40,567 bases of DNA, taken from contig JAISDC010000230.1 in the NCBI GenBank assembly GCA_031265105.1, positions 1 to 40,567 on the forward strand, read 5' to 3'. The position numbers and the translations under genes are program-made. Shown here one piece after another: positions 16,580 through 40,271 of this stretch (positions are counted from its first letter, which is position 1; each line of letters opens with the position of its first letter). The notes under the pieces are model-generated. The model did no database searches and was not told the DNA's origin. It saw only the letters and a list, made by a program, of their open reading frames with translations. Origin of the DNA: Verrucomicrobiales bacterium (lineage in GTDB: Bacteria; Verrucomicrobiota; Verrucomicrobiia; Methylacidiphilales; JAAUTS01).

Positions 16580-18057
16580 GTGTAATTCTGAAGATTACCC
16601 AGAAGTGATCTGTACAATGAGAGGTGCTTGTGCAAAGTGTAGGGATGAGCAAAGGAAGTGATGAAGTTGGCGAGTGGGCGACCGGGGAATTGGCAGGATT
16701 GAGCAGCGTGGAGGATCCGCGACGGGTGGCCCGGTTGACGCGGTTGTTGGGAGCGTTAAGGCGGCAACCTGGGGCAAGCCTGCCTGAATGTTGTCGCAGT
16801 TGGGCGGAGATCAAGGCGGCTTATCGTTTGATTGAAAGTGAACGGATTGACGCGGCGGCGGTGTTGGACAGTCATGGGTTGGCAACGCTGGGTCGGATGA
16901 GCACGGCGGGGACGGTACTGGTGATTCAGGACACGACCAGCCTGGATTATTCGGGGCGCGCGGCCACCGAGGGGCTCGGGCCGATTGACCGCAAGGGTCA
17001 ATGGCGGCAAGGCTTGTGGTTACATAGCCAATTGTGCGTGGATGGAGCGCACGGCATGGTGTACGGGTTGCTGGATGCCAAACTTTGGGCGCGACCGACT
17101 GACCGCAAACGCCGAGTTTCGACCGAACGCAACCGGCTGTCGCTGGGCGCCAAGGAAAGTTGCCGTTGGTTGGATGGTTATGCGCAGTGCGTGGAGTTAC
17201 GGCGGCAGCTCAAGACGCAGGTGATCAGCGTGGCTGATCGTGAGGGGGACATTTACGAAGTATTCAGGCACTATCAACCGGGTTCGGCTGATCTGTTGGT
17301 GCGGGCGCAGCATGACCGTGAGTTGTTGGGGCAAAACGGACGGGTGCGCGCTTGGTTGTCGGCACAAGCGGTGAACGGGTATCGGTCGGTGACCTTGCCC
17401 GACCGGTCACGCAACGTCACCCTGGCCTTGCGCTGGCAACGGGTAACCATTGCTGCGCCGGTGGATCAACGCCGTTACCATGGAGTCACAGAGCCGGTGG
17501 AACTAACGGTATTGTGGGCACGGGAGGAACACCAACCGGCGGGACTGGACTGGATGTTGTGGAGCACCCTTGAGGTGAAGAACGCAGCGGAGGCCAACAC
17601 GTTATTGAGCTATTATGAACAACGCTGGCAGATTGAAGTGCTGCACCGCATCCTCAAAAGTTACTGCCGTGCCGAACAACGACAATTGCGTACGGCGAAG
17701 CGACTGGGCTTGCTGCTGGTACTCGACCTGTTGGTAGCCGTGTATGTGTTGGGGTTAACACATGCCGCCCGTATTACTCCGAACGCCCCGGCCGATGACT
17801 GGTTAACCCCGGGTGAACAACAAGCCCTCTGCGTGTGGCATACAGGGCCGCCGTTAACCAAGCCTCTCACCCTCTCCGTCGCCGTAGCCAAGCTCGGCCA
17901 ATTGGGCGGACACTTGGGGCGCAAGCACGACGGCCCGCCGGGACCAAAAGCCCTCTACCGCGGCCTCGCCAAACTCCTAACCATTTCAGATACCTGGCAT
18001 GCCGCTGCCGTTTACTTCGCCGCCAATAAAACTTCTGGGTAATCTTCAGGTGTAATT
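16580..18057 (+). mobile_element. IS4-family insertion sequence (element 16588-18049) with 8-bp target duplication GTGTAATT
   Basis: TIRs CTGAAGATTACCCAGAAGT (16588-16606) and ACTTCTGGGTAATCTTCAG (18031-18049) are perfect 19-bp complements; GTGTAATT at 16580-16587 and 18050-18057. Confidence 0.96.
16645..18042 (+). CDS. IS4-family transposase
   Basis: N-terminal GEWATGELAGLSSVEDPRRVARLTRLLGALRRQPGASLPECCRSWAEIKAAYRLIESERID; VIQDTTSLDYSG; YYEQRWQIEVLHRILKSYCRAEQRQL (YREK-like region). Confidence 0.93.
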   Translation: MSKGSDEVGEWATGELAGLSSVEDPRRVARLTRLLGALRRQPGASLPECCRSWAEIKAAYRLIESERIDAAAVLDSHGLATLGRMSTAGTVLVIQDTTSLDYSGRAATEGLGPIDRKGQWRQGLWLHSQLCVDGAHGMVYGLLDAKLWARPTDRKRRVSTERNRLSLGAKESCRWLDGYAQCVELRRQLKTQVISVADREGDIYEVFRHYQPGSADLLVRAQHDRELLGQNGRVRAWLSAQAVNGYRSVTLPDRSRNVTLALRWQRVTIAAPVDQRRYHGVTEPVELTVLWAREEHQPAGLDWMLWSTLEVKNAAEANTLLSYYEQRWQIEVLHRILKSYCRAEQRQLRTAKRLGLLLVLDLLVAVYVLGLTHAARITPNAPADDWLTPGEQQALCVWHTGPPLTKPLTLSVAVAKLGQLGGHLGRKHDGPPGPKALYRGLAKLLTISDTWHAAAVYFAANKTSG

Positions 18058-24993: not shown

Positions 24994-25025
24994 AATGCAG
25001 CTTGCGCTGACGGTGATGGATTCGC

Positions 25026-26687: not shown

Positions 26688-26984
26688 TTATGCGATTACG
26701 CCGAGGATATCGTCCTCGCGCAAGATGAGATACTTGTCGCCGTCGAGAGTGACCTCGGTGCCGCCGTATTTGCTATACAACACGCGGTCGCCTTTGCTCA
26801 CCTCGAACGGAATGACTTTGCCACTCTCGTCTTTTTTACCAGTACCGAGGGCGACGATGGTGCCTTCCTGCGGTTTTTCCTTCGCGGTATCGGGGATGAT
26901 GATACCGCCCTTCTTCACTTCCTGCTCCTCGATGGGTTCGACCAACACGCGGTCGCCAACGGGTTTGAACTTAATGTTTGCCAT
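26688..26984 (-). CDS. groES: Co-chaperonin GroES
   Basis: [49 protein letters not shown]...[34 protein letters not shown]. Confidence 0.98.
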
Positions 26985-27030
26985 AAGTTACTTTTTTCTT
27001 TCTTGTTATCGTTAGTTTTTGTTTTAGTCA

Positions 27031-27068
27031 ACACCAGCGGCAGCGGAGCCGCTGATGGTCACGAAATT
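27031..27068. repeat. Intergenic motif-pair element, copy 1
   Basis: ACACCAGCGGCAGCGGAGCCGCTGATGGTCACGAAATTA; inverted CAGCGGC/GCCGCTG. Confidence 0.75.
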
Positions 27069-27919
27069 ATTTGTGGTTTCTCCTTCAATAGTTTCATTCC
27101 TTGGTTTCCCATGAGCGATTTCATTTGTGTAATCGCCACGTTGTTTAATTGTACCAGTCGCTCGCCTTGCGGTAAACTGTGGCGAACGAGCAGGGCGTTG
27201 ACGCTTTCCATGTTTGAGAGCACCACGAGTTGTTCCAACGCGGCGAAGTCGCGGATGTTGCCTTTTTCGCCGGGGTTGTCATCGCGCCATTGCTTCGCTG
27301 TTTTGCCGAACAGAGCCACGTTCAGCAAGTCGGCTTCATTGGCATAGACAGTGCTGATTTGTTTTTTGGTGACGAGTTGCGGGATGATGCATTCCTTGAT
27401 GGCGTCAGTGTGGATGCGGTAATTGATTTTGGAAAGTGTGCGTTGCAAATTCCATTCGAGCGAAAGCCGTTGGTTTTCTTCTCGTTTAAGACGCTTAAAT
27501 TCAGTGACGAGGAAAAGTTCAAATTCCGCCGAAATCCATGCGGCGAATTTAAAGGCAATATCGGAATGGGCAAATGTACCTCCACCATAGCGACCTGACT
27601 TTGAAATCAAGCCAATGGCATTGGTTTCGCTAATCCATTTTTGCGGTGACATCCAAAAATGTGGTTTGGCGGACTCATTTTTAAACCCCTCATAAATGTG
27701 GGGTTTAAAATTTGGGTTGTTTAGCTTTTCCCACAACCCGATATACTCAATCGTGCTGTAGGTGCGAAGCCAAAGGCTGATAACCTGCGACGGACTTTCG
27801 TCGTTGCGGTATCTTGCCATGTCGGTGAGCGAAATATAATCTTCCTTCTCTTTTGAGAACAAGACTATTTTCGTCCCCTGCACAGTTATGGTTTCCTTCT
27901 TCGCCACATTATTCTCCAT
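27059..27919 (-). CDS. KilA-N domain protein
   Basis: ISLTDMARYRNDESPSQVISLWLRTYSTIEYIGLWEKLNNPNFK...GRYGGGTFAHSDIAFKFAAWISAEFELFLVTEFKRLK. Confidence 0.9.
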   Translation of the reverse strand: MENNVAKKETITVQGTKIVLFSKEKEDYISLTDMARYRNDESPSQVISLWLRTYSTIEYIGLWEKLNNPNFKPHIYEGFKNESAKPHFWMSPQKWISETNAIGLISKSGRYGGGTFAHSDIAFKFAAWISAEFELFLVTEFKRLKREENQRLSLEWNLQRTLSKINYRIHTDAIKECIIPQLVTKKQISTVYANEADLLNVALFGKTAKQWRDDNPGEKGNIRDFAALEQLVVLSNMESVNALLVRHSLPQGERLVQLNNVAITQMKSLMGNQGMKLLKEKPQIIS

Positions 27920-27969
27920 TGCCAACTTTAAAGTGGTCAAATTCGACCACTTTAATTTTTCTTCTTATC

Positions 27970-27999
27970 ACCATCAGCGGCAACGGAGCCGCTGATGGT
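27970..27999. repeat. Intergenic motif-pair element, copy 2 (perfect 12-bp stem, 6-nt loop)
   Basis: ACCATCAGCGGC-AACGGA-GCCGCTGATGGT. Confidence 0.9.
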
Positions 28000-28027
28000 C
28001 ACGAAATTTGTTTTTATTTTTACAAAA

Positions 28028-29074
28028 TTATTTTTCCTTGTTGCTCAGTTTAGTGGTTTGCTCCGCCAGTTCAATCGCCTGCTGTAATTTTTGCTCCAGT
28101 AATTTTTTTTCCGGCAACTGCGTCATGTATTCCGCCACTTTGATTTGTCCGGGATGGTCGAGCAGCAAATAGTTGATTTGCTCAGGCGATTTTTCGCTGC
28201 ACAAAATCAACCCCACGGGCGGGTTCTCGCCCTCCCTCAAATCGTTGCGTTCGAGCCAGCGCAAGTACAATTCCATTTGCCCCTTGTAATCGGCTTTGAA
28301 TTTTCCGAGCTTCAAATCAATCGCCACCAAACACCGCAAGCCGCGATGATAAAACAGCAAATCCAGGTAATAATCTTCATTGTCAATGACAAGTCGTTTT
28401 TGGCGGCCGACAAAGGTGAAATCCGCGCCCATTTCCACGATGAAATTTTGCAGGTTCCGCAAAATAGACGACTCCAAATCTTTCTCGCTGAAGGTGTCTT
28501 TTAAGCCTAGAAAATCGAGGAAATAGGGGTCGCGGAAAACCAAATCAGGCGTGAGTTTTTTCTCATTTTTCAGCGCAGCCAAATCATTGGTGATGGTCAG
28601 CGCCGGTTTTTTGCTAATCGCCGTCCGCTCGTAAAGCATACTGTCCACGCGCTCTTGCAACGTGCGAACACTCCAATGTTCGTGAATGCACATTTGCGTG
28701 TAAAAGTCACGTTTTAGGCTGTCTTCGATGTAAATGAGGTTGCGGATGTGTGTCCAGGTCAATTGTGCACTCAGTGAGTGCACAATTGGCTCTTCTAGAA
28801 CTAACTCATTGAACCTAATGAAGTTATGTAAATTTCTTTTTGAAAAACCCTGGCCGTAACGACGGGTTAGTTCCGCGCTCAACTCTTTGATAACGGTCTT
28901 GCCATAATCAGCTTTTTCGTGCTTCAAAACGCGGTCATTTATCTGCTTACCGATATGCCAATACAAAACCGTCAATTCACTGTTGACCGTAACGGCAACT
29001 TTGCGCCGCGCGCTGTCAATCAGCGAAACGATGGACTGAAGCAATTCGCTTCCGGTTGTTTGTATCTGGCTCAT
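28028..29074 (-). CDS. PDDEXK nuclease domain protein (DUF1016/YhcG family)
   Basis: SLIDSARRKVAVTVNSELTVLYWHIGKQINDRVL...YGQGFSKRNLHNFIRF...DYYLDLLFYHRGLRCLVAIDLKLGKFKADYKGQMELYLRWL. Confidence 0.95.
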   Translation of the reverse strand: MSQIQTTGSELLQSIVSLIDSARRKVAVTVNSELTVLYWHIGKQINDRVLKHEKADYGKTVIKELSAELTRRYGQGFSKRNLHNFIRFNELVLEEPIVHSLSAQLTWTHIRNLIYIEDSLKRDFYTQMCIHEHWSVRTLQERVDSMLYERTAISKKPALTITNDLAALKNEKKLTPDLVFRDPYFLDFLGLKDTFSEKDLESSILRNLQNFIVEMGADFTFVGRQKRLVIDNEDYYLDLLFYHRGLRCLVAIDLKLGKFKADYKGQMELYLRWLERNDLREGENPPVGLILCSEKSPEQINYLLLDHPGQIKVAEYMTQLPEKKLLEQKLQQAIELAEQTTKLSNKEK

Positions 29075-29096
29075 TTTTTAATCAATTTTTTCTTGT

Positions 29097-29137
29097 CATC
29101 GTCAGCGGCAGTGGAGTCGCTGAGGGTCACGAAATTA
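29097..29137. repeat. Intergenic motif-pair element, copy 3 (imperfect)
   Basis: CATCGTCAGCGGCAGTGGAGTCGCTGAGGGTCACGAAATTA aligns to copies 1 and 2. Confidence 0.75.
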
Positions 29138-29359
29138 TTTTTTGTTTTTGTCACGTAAATATCCTTCAAATATCTCGGTTATGTTCCTGCCAATAAGCAC
29201 CGCCGACGCCAAAATGCTTATGCTAACCATTATTCCGACACAGGCTAACAGTGGATTACTTCGCCATGCCGTAACCCATGCAAACATAAAACTTCCTCCC
29301 ATGGCAAAAGCTCCAGATATTACCAGCCATTTCATAAACTTTGAGTTTTGAATGTTCAT
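29135..29359 (-). CDS. Small membrane protein, unknown function
   Basis: MNIQNSKFMKWLVISGAFAMGGSFMFAWVTAWRSNPLLACVGIMVSISILASAVLIGRNITEIFEGYLRDKNKK. Confidence 0.6.
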   Translation of the reverse strand: MNIQNSKFMKWLVISGAFAMGGSFMFAWVTAWRSNPLLACVGIMVSISILASAVLIGRNITEIFEGYLRDKNKK

Positions 29360-29364
29360 TTTTT

Positions 29365-29410
29365 GTCCGCTAATCATGCTACTAGCTTTTGATTTGCGTG
29401 ATTAGCGGAC
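29365..29410 (-). terminator. Inverted repeat downstream of dnaK (possible terminator)
   Basis: GTCCGCTAATCA (29365-29376) / TGATTAGCGGAC (29399-29410), 12-bp perfect arms, just after the dnaK stop; minus strand continues into AAAAAATGAAC, so the T tract is poor. Confidence 0.5.
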
Positions 29411-29416
29411 TCTTGG

Positions 29417-31360
29417 TTATTTCTTCTTATCATCATCCACAATCTCCGCGTCAATCACATCATCGTCAGCGGACTTCGCCGACTGCGGCTCACCGTCAGC
29501 GGGCGCGGCACCGGCAGCGGCACCGCCATGTTGCGCGTTCACATTCGCGGACGCTTGCTTGTACAACTCCGTCGAAACCTCCTGAATCTTCACCGTCAGC
29601 GCCTCGGTCGCCGACTTGATAGCGTCGCTGTCCTCACCCTTGAGAGTCTCGCGCAACTTGCCGACCAAATCCTCAACAGCCTTCTTGCCGTCCTCGCCAA
29701 TCTTGTCACCATTATCCTTCACCAACTTCTCCGCCTGGAACGCCAAGTTGTCGCCCTGATTGCGAATCTCCACCTTCTCCTTCGCCTTCTTGTCATCCTC
29801 AGCGTGCGCCTCGGCCTCCTTCACCATCCGCTCAATCTCGCTCTTGTCCAACCCGCTGCTGCCGGTGATGGAAATCTTCTGCTCCTTGTTCGTCCCCAAA
29901 TCCTTGGCGCTGACGTTGAGGATGCCGTTGGCGTCAATGTCAAACGTCACCTCGATTTGCGGCACCCCGCGCGGCGCCGGCGGAATGCCATCCAGATGAA
30001 ACTTGCCCAGCGACTTGTTATCGCGCGACAACGGCCGCTCGCCCTGCAAAATGTGAATTTCCACGCCCGGCTGACTGTCCGACGCCGTGCTGAACACATT
30101 GTTCTTCTTGGTCGGAATCGTCGTATTGCGCGGAATCATCGGCGTCGACTGGCCGCCTAACGTCTCAATACTCAGCGTCAGCGGCGTCACATCCAGCAAC
30201 AACACATCATCCACCTCGCCGCGCAACACACCGCCCTGCACCGCCGCGCCAATCGCGACCACCTCGTCCGGGTTCACGCCCTTGTGCGGCTCCTTGCCCA
30301 CGATGCGCCGCGCGATTTCCAAAATCTTCGGCATCCGCGTCATGCCGCCGACCAGCACCAATTCATTGATGCCACTGGCAGCGAGCTTCGCGTCGCGCAA
30401 ACACGCCTCGACCGGCTTGATGGTTCGCTCCGCCAGCGCCTCGGTCAGTTGCTCCAACTTCGCGCGCGTCAGCTTCAGTTGAATATGCTTCGGCCCGGTC
30501 TGGTCCGCCGTGATGAACGGCAAATTAATCTCGAACTCCTGCGACGACGACAGCGCGATTTTCGCCTTCTCCGCCTCCTCCTTGATGCGCTGCATGGCGT
30601 CCGACTGACTGTGCAAATCAATGCCGCTGTCCTTCTTGAACTCGCTGACGATGTGGTCAATCAGCGCGTTGTCCCAGTCATCGCCGCCGAGATGCGTGTC
30701 ACCGTTAGTGGCCAGCACCTCGAACACCCCGTCAGCGATGGACAACGCCGAAATATCGAACGTCCCGCCGCCGAGGTCATACACCGCGATTTTCTCATCC
30801 TTGGTCTTTTCGAGACCATAAGCCAACGACGCCGCCGTCGGCTCATTAATAATCCGCAACACCTCAAGCCCGGCAATCTTCCCCGCATCCTTCGTCGCGT
30901 GCCGCTGACTATCATTAAAATAAGCGGGCACCGTAATCACCGCCTGCGTAATCTTCTCGCCCAATTTCGCCTCAGCATCAGCCTTCAACTTGGACAAAAT
31001 AAAAGAAGAAATTTCCTCCGGCGTATAAACCTTCGCCTCCCCGCTGACCGTGACCTCCACCGCCGCCGCCCCATTCTTCCCCTCGACGACCTTATACGGC
31101 AACCGTTTAATCTCCTCCCCAATCTCCGAAAACTTCCGTCCAATCAACCGCTTCACCGAAAAAACCGTATTTTTTGAATTCGTCACCGCCTGACGTTTCG
31201 CCGCCTGTCCGACGAGTCGTTCCCCATTCTTAGTGAACGCCACCACCGACGGCGTAGTCCGCGCCCCCTCGGCATTCTCAAGAACGACCGCCTTCCCACC
31301 CTCCATAACCGCCATGCACGAATTAGTCGTGCCCAAATCAATACCCAAAACTTTACTCAT
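29417..31360 (-). CDS. dnaK: Molecular chaperone DnaK (Hsp70)
   Basis: [84 protein letters not shown]. Confidence 0.98.
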
Positions 31361-31733: not shown

Positions 31734-32580
31734 ATGGAAGCTAAAAATCTGTATATAATTTTAAGTATGTGTAACGTAAGTCGGATGAGGAAAGGTCGAC
31801 AGTACCCCAGTGATATCAGCCGAACGCAATTTGCGGAGATCAAACCACTATTGGAAAGCGCACGGAAAAAGACCCGCCCACGCGAGGTGGATTTATACGA
31901 AGTGTTCTGTGCGGTGCTGTATGTGCTGCGCAGTGGGTGCCAGTGGCGGATGCTTCCCGATGGGTTCCCCAAGTGGCGCACGGTTTATTCCTACTGGCAA
32001 ATCTGGAATGCCGTTAACGATACTGAGAGCCTGTTACCACAGGCCCTTAAAAAAATCGGTTGGCGCGGCCCGCGTTCGCCTTGGGCGCAACGCCCAGCCC
32101 AGCCTACTAATCATTGACGCCCAGCGCGTGCAGAACACCGACAGCGCCAGACACAAGGGGTATGACGCTGGCAAAAAGGTTGCCGGTAGCAAACGCCATC
32201 TGGCGGTGAATACGCAAGGTTTGCCACATGGCCTCATTGTCACCACCGCCAATGTCACCGACCGCCACGGTGCCACCAAACTGCTGTGCCAGCAACGCAC
32301 CGAGTTACAGTCCATCCACACCAGCCTGACCGATAGCGGCTACAGTGGCACCACTTTCGCCCAGGCGGTCAACCAATGGCTACCACACGCCAAGGTGCAA
32401 ATCGTCAAGCGTTTGGAGCAAGCTACTTTCGTGGTGTTGCCCAAACGCTGGATTGTCGAGCGCACCTTTGCCTGGCAGGATAAACATCGCCGCCGCTGGA
32501 AAAACTGCGAATGCCTCCTCAACTCTTCACTCCAATTCGCCATCCTCGTCCTGTTCGCTTTGCTCCTCAATAGATTATGA
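31734..32580 (+). mobile_element. IS5-family transposase in two frames (31734-32117 and 3' part to 32580), frame change at an A7 run (32049-32055)
   Basis: Frame A: YPSDISRTQFAEIKPLLESARKKTRPREVDLYEVFCAVLYVLRSGCQWRMLPDGFPKWRTVYSYWQIWN; frame B: RVRLGRNAQPSLLIIDAQRVQNTDSARHKGYDAGKKVAGSKRHLAVNTQGLPHGLIVT...WIVERTFAWQDKHRRR. Confidence 0.9.
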
Positions 32581-37148: not shown

Positions 37149-40100
37149 TTAGAACTGATGCCGGTAGCCGAGGTTCAGGTTCCACGGCACGGTGGTGTGG
37201 TCGCCGAAGATGGCGTCGTATTCCAGGCGCAACTGGTCGAAGGTGGTGATTTGCCACTGGACGCCGGCGCCGCCGAGGAAATACAGGCCGTCGGTATGCA
37301 CGCGCCACACATCGTCAGCGTCGCCGCCGATGTGGACTTTGTTGCCCGCGCTGATTTGCTCCAGCGCGCCGCCGCGCAGATACGGTTGCAAGGTCTGTCC
37401 CTGGTCGCCGAGCTTGAAAGTCCAGCCGCCGCGCACGTTCGCGGCCAACTGGCCAATGTCAGCGGCGTTGACGCGCACGGTCGCCACGTCGCTGGAGTAA
37501 TTGCCGTTGAACAGCCGCAGATACGCGGCCTGCACCGACGGCTCGACAAACGCGCCGCCCGCAAAATCAAAGCGCTTGCCCGCTGACAGTGCCGCGCCGC
37601 CCGCCCAGTTTTTGAAGTCCGCGCGGTCACGGAAATTCACGTCATTGGCGGCGCGCGCGTCGAACGAGTTCTCGGCGTACTGTCCCTTCAGCACCAGGTC
37701 GGCGAACCAGCCCGCCTGATTCAGCCAGGTGCCGTAAAAGCCGCCGTAAAAACTGTTCGTGTCGCCGTCGCCGTTGTTCTTGAAATCATGCCGCGCGCCG
37801 CCGTAGCCGACGAAATAACCGAAGGTCAGCGAGTTGGCGGCGTCGAGCCGCCAGGTCATGTCCGCGCCGAGGTCGATGCCGTAAATCATGTCGGTGAATT
37901 TCTCGACGCCGCTGATGTTGAGCTTCGTGTCGGCCTGGCGCCCGTAGGAACGCGCCCAGAAATCCACGCCGTGATCGCCCTCCTGCCGCCCGTAGGCGAT
38001 GTAGTCCTCGATGCTCTGTTCCGCGCGGAAGCGCGTTTCCGCCAGCCGCCCGCGCAGGCTGTCGAGTTGCGCGAACCATGCCAGCGGCGCCGACGCCGCG
38101 ATGTTCAAAATCGCGTTCGCCGCGCTCATGGTTTTCACGCCGCTGAGCGTCCAGTTTTGCCCGTCGGTCGCCAAGTCATATTTGTACATGCCGGAGTACA
38201 ACGAGCCGCCGTTAAGCGTGAAAGTCGCGCCACTGACACCGCTGATGGTGATAATATCGGTGGCCGCCAGCGCGCCGCCGCTCTTGCCGCTCTTGTCGAT
38301 GAACAGCGTGGTGGCGCCGGAGCTGTCACCGTTGATGAACACGCGGTCAACAATCGGCGCGCCGCCGTCCATGCGCGCGGTCATGTGCAGGGACGAACCG
38401 TCGCCGCCGAGGTAGTCGCCGTACACCGTCAGCGTGCTTTGCGTGTTGCCGTTGCCGAACCGAATCGCACCGAGGTTGGTCACGCCCGCCGAACCGGCGC
38501 GGCCGAATTGCGCGTTCGTGTCGCTGAGGGTGACTTGCGCGCGGAAGGCAATGGTCGTGCTGCCGACGTAGTCGTTGCTCCCGCTGATAACGGTATTGCC
38601 GTTGAAGGTGACGTTCAATTCCTTGGTGCTCGCCAGCGCGCCGAGCCGGACATCGCCGTTCAATTGCAAATCGGGATAATCACCGTCACCGAACGCGAGC
38701 GTGCCGCCGACGTTGAGCCGCGCGCGCCCGTCGTCCACCAGGTTAAGCACCCCGGACGAACCGGCGTTCTGCGCGACGTTCAGGTTGCCGCTGACGGTGA
38801 GTTCGCTGTTATCGATGCGCAACGAGCCGCTACCGACCGGCGCGAAATTCAAGTCACCGTTCACCACCAGCCGGGCGTCCCGTTCGAGAATCACCGTCAC
38901 GTCCGAACCGACACCCTCAGCGACGGTCATGTTATTCACCGTCAGCGTCGAGTTGCGCGAGACGACCGTGGTACCGCTCGCCGCCACGCCACCAGCCAGG
39001 GCAAAGTTACCGACCCTGACCGTGGAGTAACGATCAACACCCAACCACCCCGTCGCGTCCGCGCCTGAGGCCAGCGTCAGATTGCCCGCGGTCAGCGTGG
39101 AATAATCCAACACGTCAAGCGACGCCCACGCATTAGTCCCGGACGCGCCGACGATGTCGCCGGCGAAAATCAGCGTCGAGTGATTGGCCGCGCCCAGCCA
39201 AGCATGGGAGTTTTCGCCGGTTGCCAGATGGTTGGTACCGGTGCCGAGAAATCTTGCGCTGCCGATGTGCAGGCCGAATTGCGTGTAGGAATTTGATCCC
39301 TCGGAAGCATACAGCAAGCCGCTGTTGATGAAGCGCGCACTGACAAAATCCGTGCTCGGCGATTCAATATACACACCACCGCCGCTGTTGTCCAAATGGC
39401 CGATGCTCAAATCACCGTTGTTCGTCCATGATGACGAGTCTTCAACATACACAGCGTAGTACCCGCCGCCGTCATAGCTGATGGTGGCGCTGTTGGTGAC
39501 CAGCGTGCTGTTGTCATACAAATAAATGTGGCCATCCGCGAAGGAACTCCACGTGGAACCATCATCGCCGGACATGTCCAGCGCGCCGCCGACCGTGACC
39601 CGTCCGCTGCCGCTGACGAAGACATAACTGCCCGTGCGAAGGCGTAAGTCGCCATCATTGCGCATGGTCGCCGTGTCGGCGACTTGCAGGATACCGTACG
39701 TATTAATGTAGTTATAAGTGTTGGTTCCGCCGGTGCGAAGACTTTTGCCGGACAACTCCAGCGCGCCGAGATTATGCCACTCGCCGTTGCCGCTAACGGT
39801 GACGTATGCGTCGCCACCGTAGGCCTCCCAAGTGTTGTTGTTAATGAGGGAGCTGTGATCGGTGCCATAAATCCTCGACAGCGCGCCTTCGGTGGTGAAG
39901 GAGCCGTCGCGGATAACAAATTCCGTGCCGGTACCGGAATTGGCGGTGAGCTGGTAGCTGCCGCCGTCCACGAACAAATTGGAAATGAGCACCGGCACGG
40001 TGCTGCTGACGGTGGGATATACCCAACTGTTGGAAATATAGGCGTTATCGTGGTAGCGATTACCTTCATCGCCGGGGATGCCGCTGCGATAATATGAAAT

Positions 40101-40271
40101 GCCATTGTAATTATACCACATGCCTTCGGTGTCCTCCCAGTTCACCCTGTCGCCGATATAAAATGTGCCGGTTGGCCACCATTCATAATCATCCGCTCGC
40201 GCTGACAGTGACAGGGCGCTGACGGCAGCCAGCACCGCGATTTTTCCAAACCAATATTTACTCATAACCAA
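37149..40271 (-). CDS. Autotransporter with C-terminal outer membrane beta-barrel
   Basis: 1040 aa; signal MSKYWFGKIAVLAAVSALSLSARA; repetitive G/S/T/N passenger; C-terminal barrel FYGGFYGTWLNQAGWFADLVLKGQYAENSFDAR... ending LNLGYRHQF (terminal F). Confidence 0.94.
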   Translation of the reverse strand: MVMSKYWFGKIAVLAAVSALSLSARADDYEWWPTGTFYIGDRVNWEDTEGMWYNYNGISYYRSGIPGDEGNRYHDNAYISNSWVYPTVSSTVPVLISNLFVDGGSYQLTANSGTGTEFVIRDGSFTTEGALSRIYGTDHSSLINNNTWEAYGGDAYVTVSGNGEWHNLGALELSGKSLRTGGTNTYNYINTYGILQVADTATMRNDGDLRLRTGSYVFVSGSGRVTVGGALDMSGDDGSTWSSFADGHIYLYDNSTLVTNSATISYDGGGYYAVYVEDSSSWTNNGDLSIGHLDNSGGGVYIESPSTDFVSARFINSGLLYASEGSNSYTQFGLHIGSARFLGTGTNHLATGENSHAWLGAANHSTLIFAGDIVGASGTNAWASLDVLDYSTLTAGNLTLASGADATGWLGVDRYSTVRVGNFALAGGVAASGTTVVSRNSTLTVNNMTVAEGVGSDVTVILERDARLVVNGDLNFAPVGSGSLRIDNSELTVSGNLNVAQNAGSSGVLNLVDDGRARLNVGGTLAFGDGDYPDLQLNGDVRLGALASTKELNVTFNGNTVISGSNDYVGSTTIAFRAQVTLSDTNAQFGRAGSAGVTNLGAIRFGNGNTQSTLTVYGDYLGGDGSSLHMTARMDGGAPIVDRVFINGDSSGATTLFIDKSGKSGGALAATDIITISGVSGATFTLNGGSLYSGMYKYDLATDGQNWTLSGVKTMSAANAILNIAASAPLAWFAQLDSLRGRLAETRFRAEQSIEDYIAYGRQEGDHGVDFWARSYGRQADTKLNISGVEKFTDMIYGIDLGADMTWRLDAANSLTFGYFVGYGGARHDFKNNGDGDTNSFYGGFYGTWLNQAGWFADLVLKGQYAENSFDARAANDVNFRDRADFKNWAGGAALSAGKRFDFAGGAFVEPSVQAAYLRLFNGNYSSDVATVRVNAADIGQLAANVRGGWTFKLGDQGQTLQPYLRGGALEQISAGNKVHIGGDADDVWRVHTDGLYFLGGAGVQWQITTFDQLRLEYDAIFGDHTTVPWNLNLGYRHQF

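Follow-up and report, generated by a model that had tools for sequence, protein, structure and literature searches.

DNA uptake sequences are textbook matter for two proteobacterial families. To our knowledge they are known only from the Neisseriaceae (DNA uptake sequence, DUS) and the Pasteurellaceae (uptake signal sequence, USS). DUS and USS occur about once per kb in genic and intergenic DNA, some of them in inverted pairs, and they form dialects (PMC2397512, PMC3630211, PMC1626085). A 2006 source states that no other transformable bacteria were known to have sequences of this kind; the later literature was searched in part. Described systems also include genes that were added beside a duplicated anchor. 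Integration at one-sided homology in E. coli left mostly 109-950 bp duplications (PMC3240628), and a similar mechanism was proposed for the type VI secretion system (T6SS) immunity-gene arrays of Vibrio cholerae (PMC5361080). Here we describe a hairpin element that is present in three copies (h1, h2 and h3) between dnaK and groES of a Verrucomicrobiales bacterium, together with the dispersed 12-mer found in its arms. The window, i.e. the whole stretch of DNA that was analysed, comprises positions 1 to 40,567 of contig JAISDC010000230.1.

Between dnaK and groES the window carries a membrane-protein gene, a DUF1016 gene and a KilA-N gene in this order, all on the minus strand. Read from dnaK to groES, one hairpin follows every inserted gene, as h3, h2 and h1 (Table 1). 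The three copies had been noticed in a sequence-only reading of the window, and they proved to be real. The element pattern gave 0 matches in dinucleotide shuffles of the window. When 60 genomes including the source genome G000 (2.996 Mb, 92% complete) were searched with it (30 specified bases, ≤3 mismatches), the whole of G000 gave three matches, solely h1, h2 and h3, and the 59 other genomes gave one, which lies in G004 and likewise immediately upstream of groES. In a fuller alignment h1-h3 had 57-83 nt in common with 67-89% identity. The placement at gene borders on the minus strand was also read correctly: each hairpin is placed after a stop codon and before the ribosome-binding region of the following gene, and h1 overlaps the KilA-N stop codon. 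Folding is strong for h2 and h1 (z -7.7 and -4.7). Because there is no T-run at h1-h3 or at other inverted 12-mer pairs, the hairpins are not classical terminators. An Rfam search gave no match, and promoter and terminator scans stayed at chance level. The hairpins probably also serve as RNA boundaries between cistrons. At the border of dnaK and the membrane-protein gene (window 29365-29410) we found a 15-nt inverted repeat, GTCCGCTAATCAYGC; thus stem-loops are present at 4 of 4 cistron borders.

Comparison with relatives, which the sequence-only reading had proposed, showed that the interval is variable. It is gene-free in G005, G006 and G010 and also in G001, which belongs to the same genus; the spacer measures 104-148 bp in these four. 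The congener G004 has two of the three genes and lacks DUF1016; its order is dnaK, a 56-aa membrane gene, a palindromic spacer stretch, a hairpin-flanked KilA-N gene and groES. The reading had named a fixed interval, with the element absent elsewhere or not aligned to gene borders, as grounds for giving up modular insertion. In fact the interval varies between relatives, and the long element, which is indeed missing elsewhere, is border-aligned here. Both h1 and the G004 element resemble the native spacer of G001 (0 of 500 shuffles were equally good), and one stem change between copies is compensated (ACCATC/GATGGT to ACCCTC/GAGGGT). These two observations argue that the element is the native dnaK–groES spacer hairpin of the clade. 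As judged from sequence homology, it is the spacer hairpin of this lineage and the extra copies came with the extra genes. Between the KilA-N gene and its G004 copy, DNA identity is 66% in the N-terminal half and 82% in the C-terminal half, and dnaK is 88% identical. The N-terminal half of KilA-N seems to have been swapped.

The 34-nt element is confined to the dnaK–groES locus, and its 12-nt arms are a genome-wide repeat: the 12-mer is present within 1 mismatch in 5 of the 6 arms of h1-h3. A search for the element at other gene ends had been suggested. The long element does lie at gene borders at this locus and is absent elsewhere, while copies of its 12-mer arms are spread through the genome irrespective of gene borders. 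We first noticed the dispersed 12-mer while tracing the KilA-N empty site of G002 by DNA search. Almost all of the highest-scoring 8- to 12-mers in the window are variants of CGCTGACGGTGA, and CGCTGACGGTG was observed 27 times vs 0.23 expected. The window has 32 exact CGCTGANNGTGA sites (including 3390, 5821, 9937, 16143, 20623, 23950, 24905, 27968, 29490, 33397 and 38789). G000 carries 2,242 (1079+1163 by strand), compared with 5 for the reversed-pattern control, and three congeners carry 1,359-1,944 (G002 975+969, G003 656+703, G004 788+744). Counts were 64 in G001 (34+30), 6+3 in G006 and 3+4 in G005, and those for other genomes of the class came close to chance; the reversed-pattern control gave 0-3 per strand across the clade. 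In the mismatch spectrum, 73 sites had 0 mismatches vs 0 simulated and 263 had 1 mismatch vs 9 simulated.

G001 uses another dialect, CGCTAAYGGYGA, which is far above chance in its stretches (L317-L319, L321-L326). The layout is the same as that of CGCTGANNGTGA, with a G two bases before and then CGCT-R-A. In G005, G006 and G010, which belong to sister genera, neither dialect nor anything comparable was found. The signal is therefore clade-limited and has dialects, with CGCTGANNGTGA in four genomes of the genus and CGCTAAYGGYGA in a fifth.

The 12-mer is non-palindromic and present on both strands. Its orientation was 35:35 among the sampled sites of G000 and was biased in none of 17 stretches. 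Most of the clade sites (130 of 154) lie inside open reading frames (ORFs), the intergenic/genic density ratio is 0.8-1.4, and 5 of the 6 reading frames are used. Ala-Asp-Gly was spelled GCTGACGGT in 49 of 111 cases vs 1.0 expected, and Leu-Thr-Ala was spelled CTAACGGCG in 11 of 53 cases in G001 vs 0.15 expected; controls gave 0 for both. These spellings, far above expectation, indicate that the 12-mer overrides codon usage. Among the orthologous sites that differ, 38 of 53 are ungapped and no clean 12-nt insertion was seen. The inserted genes are poor in the 12-mer (1 site vs 5.6 expected, P=0.025), as would be expected if they were newly arrived. At position 29590, within dnaK, an ungapped 12-mer stands in place of conserved codons: relatives have Leu-Asn-Ala/Ser or similar, and Leu-Thr-Val, spelled CTGACGGTG, is present in G000 and G004.

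Compared with DUS and USS, the signal is alike in being a 9-12-mer that is non-palindromic, present at about 1 per kb on both strands in genic and intergenic DNA, clade-limited and split into dialects. It differs in sequence and lineage, in being mostly genic, and in its inverted pairs. In Neisseria, closely spaced inverted DUS pairs act as terminators, whereas here such pairs are rare and lack a T-run; they are known at h1-h3, G004:C98 and G001:C8. On the grounds of abundance, strand balance, genic placement, frames, dialects and codon override, the 12-mer is DUS/USS-like. Its behaviour fits that of a DNA uptake sequence, and a role in uptake, with ComP or another receptor, is putative. A repetitive extragenic palindromic (REP) element was rejected, since the long element is unique to the locus and the 12-mer is mostly genic.

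The strongest alternative is that the 12-mer is a genome-wide signal of some other kind that has nothing to do with uptake, resembling HIP (highly iterated palindrome), Chi or KOPS (FtsK-orienting polar sequences) or driven by repair or methylation, and that the hairpins were selected solely as RNA structures for processing or as boundaries and were duplicated so that the new genes could be expressed. We regard this as a real possibility, though a doubtful one. The stem-loop at every cistron boundary, the one at 29365-29410 included, speaks for it, and the stem compensation argues for selection at the RNA level. However, the 12-mer is non-palindromic unlike HIP1 (PMC4390886), balanced in orientation in all 17 stretches unlike Chi or KOPS, and mostly genic unlike REP, and its dialects within one genus are like those of DUS (PMC3630211). 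HIP1-like and Chi/KOPS-like signals are thus disfavoured.

To see how such genes arrive, we compared the flanks of 225 DUF1016/KilA-N genes from many genomes (a few loci entered twice) with those of 163 neighbouring ORFs; the control L060 was left out, being itself a DUF1016 relative. Significant flanking direct repeats were present at 33 of the 225 genes vs 2 of the 163 controls (p=1e-6), and both control matches are genuine repeats elsewhere. The repeats are locus-specific, diverged and 31-282 nt long. Reading of the translations showed that they frequently correspond to the first or last part of a neighbouring gene (HsdR, HsdM, HsdS, aminotransferase). In the clear coding repeats, the copies differ at codon positions 1, 2 and 3 in 13, 10 and 41 cases, so that the repeats look like two real gene ends. 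Locus L160 was compared with its many relatives that have an empty site. Its downstream copy, an intact gene start, carries the CAGTCA allele as in G296, G332, G293 and G320; its truncated upstream copy carries the TCCTCG allele as in G307, G325, G317, G330 and G295. The two repeats are thus alleles of different species, which points to recombination with imported DNA and not to duplication of one target. Locus L203 (G089:C180:1-5600) has three tandem DUF1016 genes with partial direct repeats between them.

A transposition-like insertion, in which the DUF1016/KilA-N genes (or an unseen recombinase) insert at hairpins or at gene ends with a target duplication of 30-170 bp, appears unlikely. It would account for the locus-specific repeats in the flank test, and the variable palindromes at conserved sites within these genes (described below) could be recognition structures. 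But the repeat copies are mostly 5-25% different, with an excess of third-position differences in the clear coding cases, those of L160 are alleles from different species, the repeats vary in length, and there is no recombinase gene in the units of the window. Target-site duplication as the main model was rejected on the codon-position and allele tests, identical copies of a single length not being seen. Site-specific recombination of the integron or cassette type at the hairpins would give the gene-repeat order with a hairpin at every junction, but it is very improbable: the element is nowhere else in the genome and the native spacer explains it, there is no GTTRRRY/RYYYAAC box pair on reading the element, and no integrase was found among 25 window proteins scanned with Pfam.

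We favour, with modest confidence, stepwise import of defence-type genes by recombination into an uptake-like spacer hairpin. The dnaK–groES spacer hairpin would be an inverted pair of the GN-CGCTGAC(G)GTGA signal that the genome carries >2,000 times. The membrane-protein, DUF1016 and KilA-N genes would have entered the spacer singly, carried on DNA of related cells, by recombination at spacer or gene-end homology, either as a single crossover or as homology-facilitated illegitimate recombination. Each arrival would have left one more spacer-hairpin allele beside the new gene, giving gene-hairpin three times. We infer a 12-mer-driven uptake by natural transformation, and also that the locus was filled in this way. 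The modular insertion proposed in the sequence-only reading is therefore retained as gene-plus-repeat units that recombine at flanking homology. It falls away as regards the repeat being a cassette-type recombination site, because the repeat is a native spacer hairpin built from an inverted genome-wide, mostly genic 12-mer. The V. cholerae arrays are alike in that foreign genes were added singly beside a conserved anchor to form an array (PMC5361080), and one-sided integration by single crossover or homology-facilitated illegitimate recombination likewise duplicates the anchor (PMC3240628). The difference is that the repeated piece here is a non-coding spacer hairpin of an uptake-like 12-mer.

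Several observations weigh against the favoured reading. The hairpin h3 folds weakly (z -2.9), and taken alone it shows no significant similarity to the G001 spacer. Strict inverted 12-mer pairs are rare, unlike in Neisseria, with 1 in 235 kb of clade sequence. At the few orthologous sites available, conservation of the 12-mer does not clearly exceed background. Gaps occur at 15 of the 53 differing sites, which is above background; by eye they are alignment gaps in poorly matching regions. Allelic origin of the repeats was seen at L160, not in the window. Flanking repeats remain at ∼15% of the DUF1016/KilA-N loci, and some of them (L103, L118) are non-coding or low-complexity and prove little.

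Both inserted gene families carry variable palindromes. We surveyed 81 DUF1016 genes in L073-L152 and the window, and 185 in all. These have a variable perfect palindrome, AATTNT-n6-CASTG-n6-ANAATT, whose codon position is fixed; a gene has one such site, or two that are 36-37 codons apart. KilA-N genes (window, L067-L071, L153-L177) have TTTTAA-n5-CGAATTCG-n5-TTAAAA at one codon position, at about aa 65-90; these palindromes are near-perfect with arms that differ between genes, and at some loci additional copies lie 30-100 bp upstream. Pairing of ≥11 of 12 arm bases was seen in 83% of KilA-N and 67% of DUF1016 genes vs 8% of control ORFs. Within a gene, the arms of the two DUF1016 sites are alike (0.74 vs 0.53 shuffled, 0 of 5000); copying between palindromes is a possible cause. 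A mobile palindrome was rejected, as the strict KilA-type pattern was present in 1 of 40 genomes, there within a KilA-N gene. The G004 spacer that lacks DUF1016 (L035 3775-4160) contains stand-alone KilA-N-type and DUF1016-type palindromes, one of which shares the arms TGCACTCA with the DUF1016 palindrome of the window. In the literature we found nothing that links DUF1016 with KilA-N, or KilA-N with palindromes. Perfect palindromes in coding DNA are also described from nematomorph mitochondria (PMC6649704). Those here differ in being bacterial. They occupy one or two set codon positions in two gene families that are unrelated to each other, and their arms vary in sequence while staying self-complementary.

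The features of the interval are listed in Table 1.

Table 1. Coordinates of the hairpins, genes, palindromes and 12-mer example in the window
Feature	Position	Strand	Remark
h1	27028..27068	-	spacer hairpin, KilA-N/groES; one arm CGCTGATGGTCA, second arm degenerate
h2	27967..28008	-	spacer hairpin, DUF1016/KilA-N; perfect 12-bp stem, one arm exact CGCTGANNGTGA
h3	29095..29137	-	spacer hairpin, membrane-protein gene/DUF1016; both arms ≤1 mismatch from 12-mer
KilA-N gene	27059..27940	-	PADLOC PDC-S22; PF04383, E 4e-18
DUF1016/YhcG PDDEXK nuclease gene	28028..29074	-	PADLOC PDC-S02; PF17761 + PF06250, E 1e-52
putative membrane protein gene, 80 aa	29135..29377	-	56-aa counterpart at same place in G004
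dnaK, left anchor	29417..31357	-	exact 12-mer copies at 29490, 29590, 31042
groES, right anchor	26688..26984	-	
dispersed 12-mer example CGCTGACGGTGA	25005..25016	+	
perfect palindrome within DUF1016	28760..28788		variable palindrome site B of the family
quasi-palindrome within KilA-N	27679..27710		fixed palindrome position of the family
KilA-N-type palindrome	27928..27955		KilA-N leader

The KilA-N and PDDEXK (DUF1016) identities given in the earlier reading, and its remark that such genes are typical of defence neighbourhoods, agree with the Pfam and PADLOC matches. The DUF1016 and KilA-N proteins match the PADLOC models PDC-S02 (E 1e-130) and PDC-S22 (E 3e-127) over their full length. On these model matches both are members of phage-defence candidate (PDC) families, with a predicted defence function. 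Payne et al. in 2024 reportedly described PDC genes as embedded in immune systems, and PDC-S02 and PDC-S22 are said to be covered there. Here the two genes lie between two heat-shock genes, outside a defence operon. The 80-aa membrane protein had no Pfam family match, a PDB search found no relative of the DUF1016 protein, and an NCBIfam search gave no match. Elsewhere in the window, an insertion sequence (IS) transposase of the IS4/5 family lies upstream of dnaK (31734-32580) in two frames (DUF4096 and DDE parts), and is probably frame-shifted or programmed. A Tn5-like transposase gene (Tnp_DNA_bind, DDE_Tnp_1) is at 16624-18042. An autotransporter of 1040 aa with a pertactin-like passenger (37149-40271) has many 12-mer copies.

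We tentatively propose, and hold it quite possible, that the 12-mer is a third and independently evolved DUS family with at least two dialects in one uncultured genus. Transformation guided by the 12-mer would then add defence genes at inverted-signal spacers, with gene and hairpin spreading together. It is a long-standing question whether uptake sequences evolved through kin preference or through drive by a biased uptake machine. If the proposal is true, an independent case with dialects within a genus, and with a congener of the other dialect that is empty at this locus, would be a fresh natural test. It would also provide a concrete route for small defence genes into housekeeping operons, which would explain the repeats beside them.
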